Shown in pieces: positions 21,273 to 46,852 of a stretch of 64,000 bases of DNA (positions are counted from its first letter, which is position 1; each line of letters opens with the position of its first letter). The notes under the pieces were generated by a model. It was given only the letters and a program-made list of their open reading frames with translations. It was not told where the DNA came from and ran no database searches. The position numbers were made by a program, and so were the translations under genes. The stretch spans positions 1,054,001-1,118,000 of the forward strand of contig NZ_BMPG01000001.1 in NCBI RefSeq assembly GCF_014647475.1. The letters are read 5' to 3'. Origin of the DNA: Halocalculus aciditolerans (GTDB lineage: Archaea; Halobacteriota; Halobacteria; Halobacteriales; Halobacteriaceae).

Positions 21273-21539
21273 ATGGGGAAGGTCGCCGCCCGCATCAAGG
21301 TCATGCCGCAGAGCCCCGACGTCGACCTCGACGACCTCACCGAGCGCCTCGAATCCGCGCTCCCCGAAGGTGCCAAAATCTCCCGCACCGACCGCGAGGA
21401 CGTCGCGTTCGGCCTCGTCGCCCTCTTCCCGACCGTCATCATCCCCGACGAAGCCGGCGGCACCGAAGCCGTCGAAGAGGCCTTCGGCGGCGTCGACGGC
21501 GTCGAATCCGTCGACGTCGACGAAGTCGGTCGGATCTAA
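21273..21539 (+). CDS. ef1b: Translation elongation factor 1 beta (aEF-1B)
   Basis: The ATG at 21273 gives 88 residues ([20 protein letters not shown]), the length usual for archaeal EF-1 beta. The GEF fold is seen as [20 protein letters not shown] and [20 protein letters not shown]. It exchanges GDP for GTP on EF-1 alpha. It lies 2 bases after the zinc-finger gene. Directly after its stop is the four-hairpin element at 21541-21730. Confidence 0.93.
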
Positions 21540-21540
21540 A

Positions 21541-21730
21541 AACCCACTTTTTTATTGCGAGCATAGCGCTTCGCGCTATGCTCGATAAAAACCTGGACTA
21601 AAAGCCTCCTCGTTCCAGCCGCGCGGCTCCGCCGCGCGTTAGTCACTCGTCGGCCTCGCCTACGGCGAGTGAATCGCGCACCTCGGGCTCTAACGAGCCA
21701 CTCGGTGCGCGAACGCTCGCAGAGTGCTCG
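21541..21730 (+). ncRNA. Four-hairpin structured element, copy A (3' of EF-1 beta)
   Basis: The element starts one base after the EF-1 beta stop. It opens aacccacttttttattgcga, then hairpin 1 (cgagcatagcgc, loop ttc or gaa depending on strand, gcgctatgctcg; 12 pairs) and cgataaaaacctgg. A conserved aaaagcctcctc follows, then hairpin 2 (cgcgcggctccgccgcgcg), hairpin 3 (cactcgtcgg...ggcgagtg) and hairpin 4 (outer cgcgcacc/ggtgcgcg, inner ggctc/gagcc). Copy B at 45580-45754 keeps all flanks but has different stem bases that still pair. It may be a terminator or a structured 3' UTR; calling it RNA is inference. Confidence 0.65.
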
Positions 21731-21849
21731 TGTCCCCTTCTGGAAGCAAGTCCGGTGGGAATCTCTACGCCCGGTAACCGTCTCAGCCGATGCTCAACGA
21801 CGTTCGTTCAGTCGCTCGCTCGCACTTTCACGGGAGGGTGAGTCCGCGT
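21731..21849. other. Gap between element A and cdd
   Basis: No gene is seen. The sequence around 21,790-21,830 has GAGCG-type repeats on the minus strand (cgttcgttcagtcgctcgct). It follows the cdd stop in the sense direction of cdd. Confidence 0.3.
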
Positions 21850-22293
21850 CTACCAGGTGCGGGTGGGGAGGAGGTCGACGGCGCGGACTTTCACGAGGTC
21901 GCCGTCGCGGGGGACGATGGTCTCGATGTCGCGGCCGTAGTCGGCGGTGAGTTCGCGGCAGGCTCCGCAGGGCGGGACGACTTCGGGGTCGCCGCTCTCG
22001 GTGGTGTCTTCGTGGCGGACGGCGACGATGGCGTCGAAGGCGCGTGCGCCGTCGCCGAGCGCGCTGCCGAGGGCGATGGGTTCGGCGCAGAGGCTCGTCC
22101 GCCGGACGTTCGAGGGGACGTTGACGCCGGTGTAGACGTCGCCGTCGGTCGTTCTGAGGGCCGCGCCGACGGCGTGCGACCCGCCGAATCCGTCCGGGTC
22201 GAAGGCGCGGCGCGTCGCGTCGGCGGCGCGTTCGACGAGGCGTTCGTCCGCGTCGTCGAGCGGGAACGTGGGCGCAGTGAGTGGGGCTGTCAC
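21850..22293 (-). CDS. cdd: Cytidine deaminase-like enzyme
   Basis: The 147-residue protein has the cytidine/deoxycytidylate deaminase zinc motifs: LCAEPIAL with the catalytic Glu, and PPCGACREL with two zinc-binding Cys. The substrate-binding N-terminal part includes HAVGAALRTTDGDVYTGVNV. The family hydrolyses cytidine to uridine and feeds pyrimidine salvage. The length is typical of the homotetrameric form. Substrate preference (cytidine or related nucleosides) cannot be read directly. Confidence 0.9.
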   Translation of the reverse strand: MTAPLTAPTFPLDDADERLVERAADATRRAFDPDGFGGSHAVGAALRTTDGDVYTGVNVPSNVRRTSLCAEPIALGSALGDGARAFDAIVAVRHEDTTESGDPEVVPPCGACRELTADYGRDIETIVPRDGDLVKVRAVDLLPTRTW

Positions 22294-44846: not shown

Positions 44847-45563
44847 ATGCCGTCCAGACGGGCGTTCCTCGCGGCGACGGCCACGAGCGCGAGCGTGCTC
44901 GCCGGCTGCAGTAGTGGGCCGACCGCTGACGGAACGATCGCCGAAACTGCCGCTCCGGCGACCGGCACGAACCGAACGACGGCGACGCAGACGACGACCG
45001 CCGAGCCAGTTCCGGCGTCCGCGGGTTCGTTCGACGCGACGCTCGTCCGGGACACGACCGACAGCCACCCGCCGCGCGTCGAGGCGACGCTCACGAACGA
45101 GAGTGACGCGGCGTTCACGCTCTCGGGCGGCTACGCGCCGCCGTTCTCCGCATCTGCAGCCCGCGAGCGAGCGGGTGACGCCGCGCTCGCGCTCTACCCC
45201 ATCGACGAGGACGCCCGCCAGTACGTCCAGCGCGTCGGCGCGAACAGCAGCGCACCGCCGTCAAATCGCACGAACGGCTGCTGGCGGCTCGACGGAAGCT
45301 ACGCCGTCGCGGGAATCGCCCGCATGCTCACCCTCTCCCCCGGCGAGTCCGCGAGCGTCACCTACGACGTCTACACGTCCGGCGACGGCGCGTGCTTCCC
45401 GGACGGCGACTACCTCGCCGAGCACGCCGCCCGCGTCAGCCGCGGCACGCACTACGACGACGCAACCTCGACCGCCTGGCTCTACGGCTTCACACTCCAC
45501 GTCCGCGACAACACCATCGCCTCACTCAACGTCGAGAAAATCACCAGAGCCGGCGGCGCGTAG
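44847..45563 (+). CDS. Secreted lipoprotein
   Basis: The 238-residue protein starts MPSRRAFLAATATSASVLAG, a Tat-like RR signal with a lipobox ending in Cys21. A Thr-rich linker precedes the beta-rich part: RVEATLTNESDAAFTLSGGY, APPFSASAARER, GCWRLDGSYAVAG, LSPGESASVTYDVYTSGDGA and CFPDGDYLAEHA ending WLYGFTLHVRD. It is a longer relative of the protein at 22342-22899. It is probably anchored on the cell surface; the function is unknown. A TATA-like acttatg lies near 44,815. Confidence 0.8.
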   Translation: MPSRRAFLAATATSASVLAGCSSGPTADGTIAETAAPATGTNRTTATQTTTAEPVPASAGSFDATLVRDTTDSHPPRVEATLTNESDAAFTLSGGYAPPFSASAARERAGDAALALYPIDEDARQYVQRVGANSSAPPSNRTNGCWRLDGSYAVAGIARMLTLSPGESASVTYDVYTSGDGACFPDGDYLAEHAARVSRGTHYDDATSTAWLYGFTLHVRDNTIASLNVEKITRAGGA

Positions 45564-45579: not shown

Positions 45580-45754
45580 CGAGCTCTGCGTTCGTGACCC
45601 GAGCGGCTCGAAGAGCCCGGGAGGGTCGCGATTCACCGAGCGCGACGAAGGAGCGCTCGGGCCGACGAACCCCCGAAGGGGGTGAGGAGGCTTTTGGTCC
45701 AGATTTTTATCGAGCAGTCGGCGAAGCCGACTGCTCGCAATAAAAAGGTGGGTT
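45580..45754 (-). ncRNA. Four-hairpin structured element, copy B (3' of idsA)
   Basis: On the minus strand this starts directly after the idsA stop: aacccacctttttattgcga, hairpin 1 (cgagcagtcggc, gccgactgctcg), then cgataaaaatctgg and aaaagcctcctc. Hairpin 2 is accccttcggggt-like, hairpin 3 ccgagcgctcc...gcgctcgg and hairpin 4 outer gaccc/gggtc with inner ggctc/gagcc. Flanks match copy A at 21541; stems differ but still pair. Function is unknown. Confidence 0.65.
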
Positions 45755-46852
45755 CTAGTACCCGCGGTGGATGAGGTAGTCGGCGATGTCGCGGAGGGTC
45801 TGCCGGGCCTCGTTGTCGGGGAGGACGTCGAGTTCGGCTTTGCCTTCTTCGACGAGTTCTTCGGCGAGGTCTTCGGCGTACTGGATGCTGCCGGCGTCTT
45901 CGAGGACGCCGACGGCTTCGTCGATTTCGGCTTCGGTGACCTCTTCGGGAGTGTCGGCGTCGAGGAGGCTGTCGACGTCGACGCCCTGGTCGCGCGCGTG
46001 CAGCGTGATGACGGTGCGCTTTCCTTCGACGAGGTCGCTGCCGCGCTGTTTACCGAGCTGTTCGGAGGGAACGGTGAGGTCGAGGACGTCGTCCTGAATC
46101 TGGAAGGCTTTCCCGACGGTGCGGCCGTAGCGCGCGAGCGCGTCGACCGTGTCGTCGTCCGCGCCGAGGAGCATCCCGGGGACGGCGGACGCCGCGCTGT
46201 AGAGGACGGCGGTCTTGAGTTCGACCATCCCGAGGTACTCTGAGAGGTCGACGTTCCCGCGTTCCTCGAAGCCGACGTCGTACGCCTGGCCTTCGCAGAT
46301 CTTCGTGCAGGTGGTGGCGAGCGTTTCGAGCGCCTGGAGTTCGCGCTCCGACGCTGCCTGCGTGCGCAGCATAATCTCGAACGCTTTCGAGTAGAGTGTG
46401 TCGCCCGCGAGAATCGCGGTCTCCGTGTCGTACTCGCGGTGGACGGCGGGGACGCCGCGCCGGAGGTCGTCGTCGTCCATGATGTCGTCGTGGATGAGCG
46501 TGAACGACTGGATGACCTCGATGGAGACGGCGGACGCCATCACGTCGACCTCGCCGGCGTCGTCGCTTCCAGCGGCTGTCGCATCGCCGGACCCGTCGCT
46601 TCCGGACCTATCTAGCGCGGGGAACGCCGCGTAGTCCGTGCTGAGCGGTTCGACGTCGGCGAGCGCTTCGGCGACGAGGAGCGTGACCGTCGGCCGGAGG
46701 CGTTTCCCGCCGGCTTCGAGGAGGTAGCGGGAGGCCTCGTAGAGCCGCTTCGGCTCCGCCATCGGGAGGTGTTCGTCGATGGCGTCGTTCACCAGTTCGC
46801 GACGCTCCCCGATGGCGTCGAGCACCGCTTCCTCGCGGGACTCCTGGGACAT
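45755..46852 (-). CDS. idsA: Geranylgeranyl/farnesyl diphosphate synthase
   Basis: The 365-residue trans-prenyltransferase has the first Asp-rich motif LIHDDIMDDDDLRRG and the second KAFQIQDDVLDLT. GKRLRPTVTLLVAEAL is at the start. A long Gly/Ser/Asp insert (RSGSDGSGDATAAGSDDAGE, about 80-105) is unusual and may be a loop. It makes isoprenoid chains for archaeal lipids. The ATG follows the RNase J stop directly. Confidence 0.94.
   Translation of the reverse strand: MSQESREEAVLDAIGERRELVNDAIDEHLPMAEPKRLYEASRYLLEAGGKRLRPTVTLLVAEALADVEPLSTDYAAFPALDRSGSDGSGDATAAGSDDAGEVDVMASAVSIEVIQSFTLIHDDIMDDDDLRRGVPAVHREYDTETAILAGDTLYSKAFEIMLRTQAASERELQALETLATTCTKICEGQAYDVGFEERGNVDLSEYLGMVELKTAVLYSAASAVPGMLLGADDDTVDALARYGRTVGKAFQIQDDVLDLTVPSEQLGKQRGSDLVEGKRTVITLHARDQGVDVDSLLDADTPEEVTEAEIDEAVGVLEDAGSIQYAEDLAEELVEEGKAELDVLPDNEARQTLRDIADYLIHRGY

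Follow-up and report, generated by a model that had tools for sequence, protein, structure and literature searches.

Two genes in the stretch of DNA analysed here, a window of 64,000 nucleotides from the haloarchaeon Halocalculus aciditolerans, are followed by the same succession of hairpins built from different letters, and the question is whether such an element is kept as a structured RNA or spreads as a repeat of the DNA. The initial annotation had proposed a four-hairpin element with conserved blocks in two copies, and both were found where it had placed them, with the hairpins and blocks as described. Copy A occupies positions 21541-21720 of the plus strand; its start agrees with the annotation, whereas its end lies near 21719, short of the 21730 given there. 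The copy stands behind the gene for elongation factor 1-beta (EF-1 beta; open reading frame at 21273-21539 on the plus strand, NCBIfam NF001670 over cut-off), with the stop codon TAA at 21537-21539, and faces a convergent gene on the minus strand (21850-22293; open reading frame list and coding model) whose product is cytidine deaminase-like by sequence. Copy B, on the minus strand from 45754 to 45585, follows the stop codon TAG of an isoprenyl (geranylfarnesyl-type) diphosphate synthase gene (45755-46852, minus strand; open reading frame, NCBIfam NF040789 over cut-off), and its convergent neighbour is an unnamed open reading frame on the plus strand (44847-45563; open reading frame list and coding model).

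Two covariance models, R2 for the 5' half and R1 for the 3' half, share no sequence and were built from copies in this genome only; R2 and R1 match copy A at 21541-21606 and 21655-21719, and copy B at 45689-45754 and 45585-45660, respectively. The element is about 180 bases long and occurs in tens of copies in haloarchaea, almost exactly behind the stop codons of housekeeping genes. In the 3.38 Mb genome of H. aciditolerans, blastn with copy A yields 51 matches at E<=10, of which some 25 have E-values far below 1e-3, and R1 yields 44 matches at E<=1 and 36 at E<=0.01. The covariance-model search that had been proposed for haloarchaeal genomes was extended to 59 relatives: 24 of the 26 genomes of the same family carry R1 copies (2-35 each at E<=0.01), and those of other families mostly contain 0-2 per genome, with up to 13 in genus g34 of a second family. 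An R2 match lies upstream on the same strand for 85 of 108 R1 matches (90 loci). In haloarchaeal control DNA surrounding EF-1 beta in other genera (487 kb), neither model gave a match better than E=0.06. One genome of genus g5 (G014, 99% complete) has zero copies; other species of this genus have 13-28, so that it can serve as a natural control for identifying a partner gene.

The statement that no named family accounts for the element was upheld: no Rfam 15 covariance model matched the whole window at the gathering threshold, and none matched copy A (21500-21800) up to E=10, which rules out a known RNA family as its identity. No earlier description was found in a literature search whose coverage excluded most subscription journals. 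Copy A has no match among plasmids, and viral contigs, scanned once with an exact pattern, gave no hit. The element is classed as a dispersed multi-hairpin repeat, akin to known palindromic repeats and unusual in its stop-codon anchoring, strand polarity and multi-helix covariation.

The architecture reads, in order, stop codon, P0, C.C mismatch, P1, AAAA linker, P2, P3, TGAA, P4 with an internal loop, and ACGCT. P0 is a helix of 3 bp outside P1 and beside the stop codon; in copy A it spans 21544-21596 and pairs CCA (21544-21546) with TGG (21594-21596), next to the C.C mismatch at 21547/21593. P1 (21549-21591), with a T-rich 5' arm and an A-rich 3' arm, pairs TTTTTAT (21549-21555) with ATAAAAA (21585-21591), as indicated by the pair counts and the fold; it contains a TG bulge (21556-21557) and an inner stem (21558-21569 with 21573-21584), and both strands thereby carry a T-run. 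Other copies pair TTTTGC with GCAAAA or TTTTAC with GTAAAA at this position. Thus, the conserved blocks tttttattgcgagca and tgctcgataaaaa, previously taken for single-stranded parts, are mostly the two arms of P1. The linker ACTAAAA (21597-21603) includes the AAAA that is conserved in a tabulation of 85 copies and reads TTTT on the other strand. It leads to the P2 region (21604-21654; GCC at 21604-21606 with GGC at 21652-21654, inner hairpin at 21620-21638) and to P3 (CTCGCC-TAC-GGCGAG, 21655-21669). The TGAA joint (21670-21673), conserved in alignment A3, precedes P4 (21674-21712), in which TCGCGCACC (21674-21682) pairs with GGTGCGCGA (21704-21712) around a conserved internal loop and an inner hairpin, GGCTC-TAAC-GAGCC (21686-21699). 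Both P3 and P4 rest on covariation counts, and the 3' tail ACGCTCG (21713-21719) on alignment A3. P0, the placement of P1 around the conserved C.C mismatch and the tight anchoring at stop codons had no counterpart in the initial annotation. In genus g4 (L081-L117), the element seems to be about 30 nt longer, ending in ...ACGCTAGCC-NN-GTGGTTCGTTCAGTACAG, a tail that is not general in the H. aciditolerans genome, and one locus of the latter (L017, C1:460108) has a second, partial P4 (GAGGCTCTATCGAGCCACTCGGGTCGCGAATGCTC) in tandem behind the first, around the R1 match.

Chance pairing is ruled out by the fold of copy A (z = -7.6 versus dinucleotide shuffles) and by covariation. The claim that stems differ and still pair was borne out on 12 copies, in an alignment that was not fitted to a model (both-side changes in 13 of 22 pairs; covariation score 0.478 versus 0.137 in shuffles), and then on two sets drawn from many genera, of 108 and 104 copies, aligned by fitting to the models, with the same picture. 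In the 108-copy alignment, 95.7% of the cells are paired, 20 of the 22 pairs are doubly changed and the score is 0.564 versus 0.180 in shuffles; the corresponding values for the 104 copies are 94.3%, 20 of 23, and 0.459 versus 0.109. None of 500 shuffles reached the observed score in these two alignments, and the doubly changed pairs amount to 40 of 45 in all. Random stem changes without pairing in other copies, named at the outset as grounds for dropping the claim, were looked for and pairing was found to be kept (95.7% and 94.3% of the cells). P0 behaves likewise, with seven triplet types among 85 copies, all fully complementary (CGA/TCG 27, CCA/TGG 16, GCA/TGC 11, GTA/TAC 9, GAA/TTC 7, GGA/TCC 5, CTA/TAG 2), and the adjoining mismatch is C.C in 67 of these copies and C.T in nine. 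What is conserved is the fold, namely P0, P1 with the C.C mismatch and the bulge, P2, P3, and P4 with its internal loop, and not the letters.

The position of the element relative to the host gene is equally constrained. The distance from the stop codon to the conserved mismatch base is 7 nt in copy A, 6 nt in copy B, and 1-8 nt in 62 of the 67 elements with an upstream coding gene on the same strand; the five exceptions include two model misregistrations (L012 and L016+) that a reading by eye places at the stop codon. At distances of 1-3 nt, P0 includes bases of the stop codon itself. The conserved C.C mismatch and the pairing of P0 with stop-codon bases suggest that the folded form does something at the gene end. 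The hosts include EF-1 beta, isoprenyl diphosphate synthase, aRF1, aCPSF1, a NusA-like protein, TBP, thermosome, SRP54, DnaJ, CDC48, FtsZ, RadA, topoisomerase VI A, methionine adenosyltransferase and IlvE, and 12 host-gene clusters recur, ten across genera and one (thermosome) across families. The next gene is convergent in 37 of 57 clear cases, compared to 27-39% of gene ends in the comparison sets. Beside the NusA-like gene in g5 (L106, L107, L109, L122), inverted pairs of elements recur with their P4 ends facing, the second copy not being behind a stop codon.

Comparison of orthologous sites reveals gain, loss and decay. The EF-1 beta copy is present in this genome and in seven of 14 g5 species, decayed in G001 and missing from both its sister G007 and other genera; no element was detected at EF-1 beta outside the family by R1 and R2 over the 487 kb from other genera. 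The empty site is nearly clean in G016 compared to G010, with CTGTAA followed by GCGGCTCC in the former and ATCTAAGGCAC...GATGCTA followed by GCGGCTCC in the latter, a match of 8 bases only. The isoprenyl diphosphate synthase copy is found in g1, g2 and, in a shorter form, most of g5, with remnants in g4. At 13 host genes of four g4 species there are full copies, remnants consisting of P1 only, or nothing, and in this genus the stems of one helix are swapped wholesale with the other helices unchanged. Furthermore, other double-hairpin repeats, with conserved linkers of their own and variable perfect stems, sit in P1, the AAAA linker or P2. Family II (CGTTCGA-hairpin-TGATGACGA-hairpin-TCGAACCACG) is inserted into P1 or P2 in both orientations (L012, L014, L016+ and L025 in this genome; L300, L318, L309 and L316 in g4). 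Family III (ACTG-hairpin-CCGTTCAG-hairpin-CGACAA) is inserted into the AAAA linker of other copies (L027, L325 and, on the minus strand, L098; variant in L317/L330) and is missing from the orthologous copy L302. With tens of copies, turnover at orthologous sites and nested insertions, the structured-repeat part of the previously suggested structured mobile repeat finds support.

In other families, copies of the element stand directly behind a conserved site, TAGTGTTCCGGGCGTACA, whose left side is of two kinds (CCGCCCGGCACGAGGGTT... or GAGCCTACTAGTAGAAACTCGYYCGG; L128 445-2540, L131 1381-1660, L115, L127, L130, L063, L065, L132). In L128, such sites separate genes that resemble PIN/DUF5615 toxins by sequence, and L131 has a Doc/Fic-like one, an arrangement that can be likened to an integron- or pdif-type cassette array; the exact site pattern is rare (3 of 146 genomes).

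The covarying stems had been read as a sign of selection on RNA structure, and as the sole cause, acting in the sense transcript, this is not supported, given the lack of a wobble preference, the better fold of the opposite strand and the loops of DNA-hairpin type. If a sense RNA was under selection, G.U pairs would be expected to be far more common than A.C mismatches; the element fails that test, with 64 G.T (1.5%) and 45 A.C (1.0%) among 4337 cells, both low and much alike in convergent and co-directional settings. The tRNAs of the same genome contain 35 G.U and 0 A.C among 756 cells; since ARAGORN may omit A.C mismatches in tRNAs, it is safer to compare the G.U frequency (P = 4e-7). Of 81 copies, 77 fold better on the strand opposite the gene under RNA parameters and 79 under DNA parameters; in a control, the same criterion picked the tRNA strand correctly in 26 of 30 cases. 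Hairpin loops on the gene strand within elements are TNC/TNNC in 112 cases, GNA in 28 and other in 45, compared to 23 of 67 of these types together in hairpins outside elements, and the loop of P4 is TTC 55 times and GAA never. Read on the opposite strand, TNC/TNNC loops become GNA/GNNA, the loop type found in GCGAAGC, a DNA mini-hairpin of unusual stability. Loops are also flipped between orthologues (GGA/TCC in P1 of G007/G001; GAA/TTC in P4 of G017/G018). A use of the GCGAAGC mini-hairpin is described in PMC4686876. Pairing, strand bias, loop type and loop flips are more in keeping with a folded strand of DNA than with a sense RNA.

These data bear on the possibility of a cis-acting 3'-UTR RNA, produced when sense transcription reads through the T-run and forming the four-helix fold, with a role in stability, processing or 3'-end formation and with stems that would evolve by compensatory changes to keep the RNA paired. 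Such an RNA would account for the sense orientation with its stop-codon anchoring, the stability of the sense-strand fold (z = -7.6), the pairing of P0 even where it uses stop-codon bases, the core-gene hosts (EF-1 beta, aRF1, aCPSF1, NusA-like, TBP, thermosome, SRP54) and the recurrence at orthologous genes. However, G.U is barely above A.C, the antisense strand folds better, the unpaired sense parts are C/T-rich (59% C+T), a T-run precedes every helix, and many species have lost the element without replacement, so that we consider this explanation unlikely.

The reading that we favour, at a rough probability of 0.45, is a non-autonomous multi-hairpin DNA repeat of Halobacteriaceae that is anchored at gene ends and also brings T-tracts able to end transcription. 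Copying or correction would proceed via a single DNA strand in folded form, the one opposite the host's coding strand, either by an enzyme or by template switching together with gene conversion. The T-tract of the element would terminate the host gene, and the AAAA linker and the A-tract of P1 would provide T-tracts on the other strand for the converging neighbour; these built-in terminators may explain why copies are retained precisely at gene ends. No transposase or recombinase was found linked to the element, and no target-site duplication could be defined. A Y1 transposase of the IS200/IS605 type (PF01797) was rejected as a partner, with 0 matches in the copy-rich genome of H. aciditolerans and 2 in the copy-free G014. 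Against this reading, anchoring at +1 to +8 of the stop codon is unusual for a mobile repeat, the 12 recurring host-gene clusters, mostly across genera, also fit long retention for a function, and the low G.U frequency could partly result from recent wholesale stem replacement. A new class of archaeal elements, acting at gene ends as a folded single strand of DNA, namely that opposite the coding strand, with the stop codon in the outermost helix and with, for example, a dedicated recombinase or a chromosome-organising protein as partner, seems rather unlikely.

Immediately downstream of the stop codon, the element supplies a run of four to six T. Only eight of 90 genes of this genome have a run of at least four T within 40 nt of the stop, two of these runs being those of copies A and B, and in Haloferax volcanii a T5C stretch gives 95% termination (PMC7237163). 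A non-mobile bidirectional terminator or insulator kept by selection, in which T-tracts behind hairpins on both strands stop both neighbours, would make use of T4-T6 behind the stop on one strand and of TTTT behind P2 on the other (AAAA linker, A-tract), would agree with the enrichment of convergent neighbours (37 of 57) and, with both RNAs folding, would entail strand-symmetric pairing. It appears doubtful all the same: a third of the copies have a co-directional neighbour and equally low G.U and A.C, P3, P4 and the C.C mismatch are superfluous for T-tract termination, and nested insertions, loop flips and frequent losses also speak against it. It is very improbable that a functional RNA is encoded on the opposite strand, whether as a small antisense RNA or as the converging neighbour's 3' UTR: this strand does have the better fold in 77 of 81 copies, by a criterion that is right for the tRNA strand in 26 of 30, but a promoter-like TTTWWW box lies within 120 nt of only one of 85 copies, sense-strand A.C (that is, antisense G.U) is not enriched, and the element is placed by the stop codon of the host gene, not by that of the neighbour. 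Template switching within hairpins, keeping palindromes perfect and imitating covariation in the absence of selection, agrees with the low G.U, the loop inversions and the wholesale stem exchange but is highly improbable, since arm copying would erase the C.C mismatch and the internal loops, both of which persist, along with conserved linkers, a fixed helix order and stop-codon anchoring across genera.

If the favoured reading of a gene-end DNA repeat is true, the 3' ends of many core genes of these haloarchaea, including those for translation factors, aRF1, aCPSF1, TBP, thermosome, FtsZ and RadA, are shaped by a structure-conserved repeat with a built-in stop codon. The gain, loss and decay of copies between closely related species would then provide a natural system in which to study archaeal gene ends and the possible role of folded single-stranded DNA as a substrate in the archaeal chromosome. 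The repeat would also be a warning that covariation in GC-rich hairpin repeats does not by itself imply a functional RNA, and that for such repeats the comparison of G.U with A.C and the strand test should come first.

Among known systems, the bacterial REP/BIME sequences, mobilised by RAYT, likewise consist of short, imperfect, non-coding hairpins that occur in large numbers at gene 3' ends, often between converging genes, and the element shares with them this abundance of extragenic hairpins close to the 3' ends of genes; the partner Y1 transposase (RAYT, PF01797) was not found in the H. aciditolerans genome. Unlike REP/BIME, the element is several times longer, has four to five helices with hypervariable stems, and is fixed to one strand and to +1 to +8 relative to the stop codon, in a genome without a Y1 transposase. 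Integron attC sites (PMC2727003) similarly combine little sequence conservation with retained extrahelical bases and mismatches, a folded bottom strand and a position just behind the stop codon. However, attC recombines via an integrase, whereas the gene-end copies have no linked integrase or cassette array and their hosts are housekeeping genes; the likeness is limited to strand preference and unpaired bases. The DHEs of Allomyces and the palindromes of Volvox, in organelle DNA, are selfish-looking hairpin units with short loops that insert into one another and are confined to non-coding DNA; in Volvox organelles, palindromic selfish repeats insert into one another (PMC2670323). Insertion into new sites and into each other is likewise seen here (nested families II-IV). 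The organelle repeats occur in both orientations, as does nested family II, in contrast to the main element, which mostly follows the host coding strand and has a fixed helix order, conserved linkers, covarying stems and gene-end anchoring. Finally, the T-stretch terminators of Haloferax volcanii (PMC7237163) resemble the element in having an intergenic T-run behind the gene, whereas in the element the T-run forms the 5' arm of a long hairpin, with about 150 nt of conserved structure behind it.
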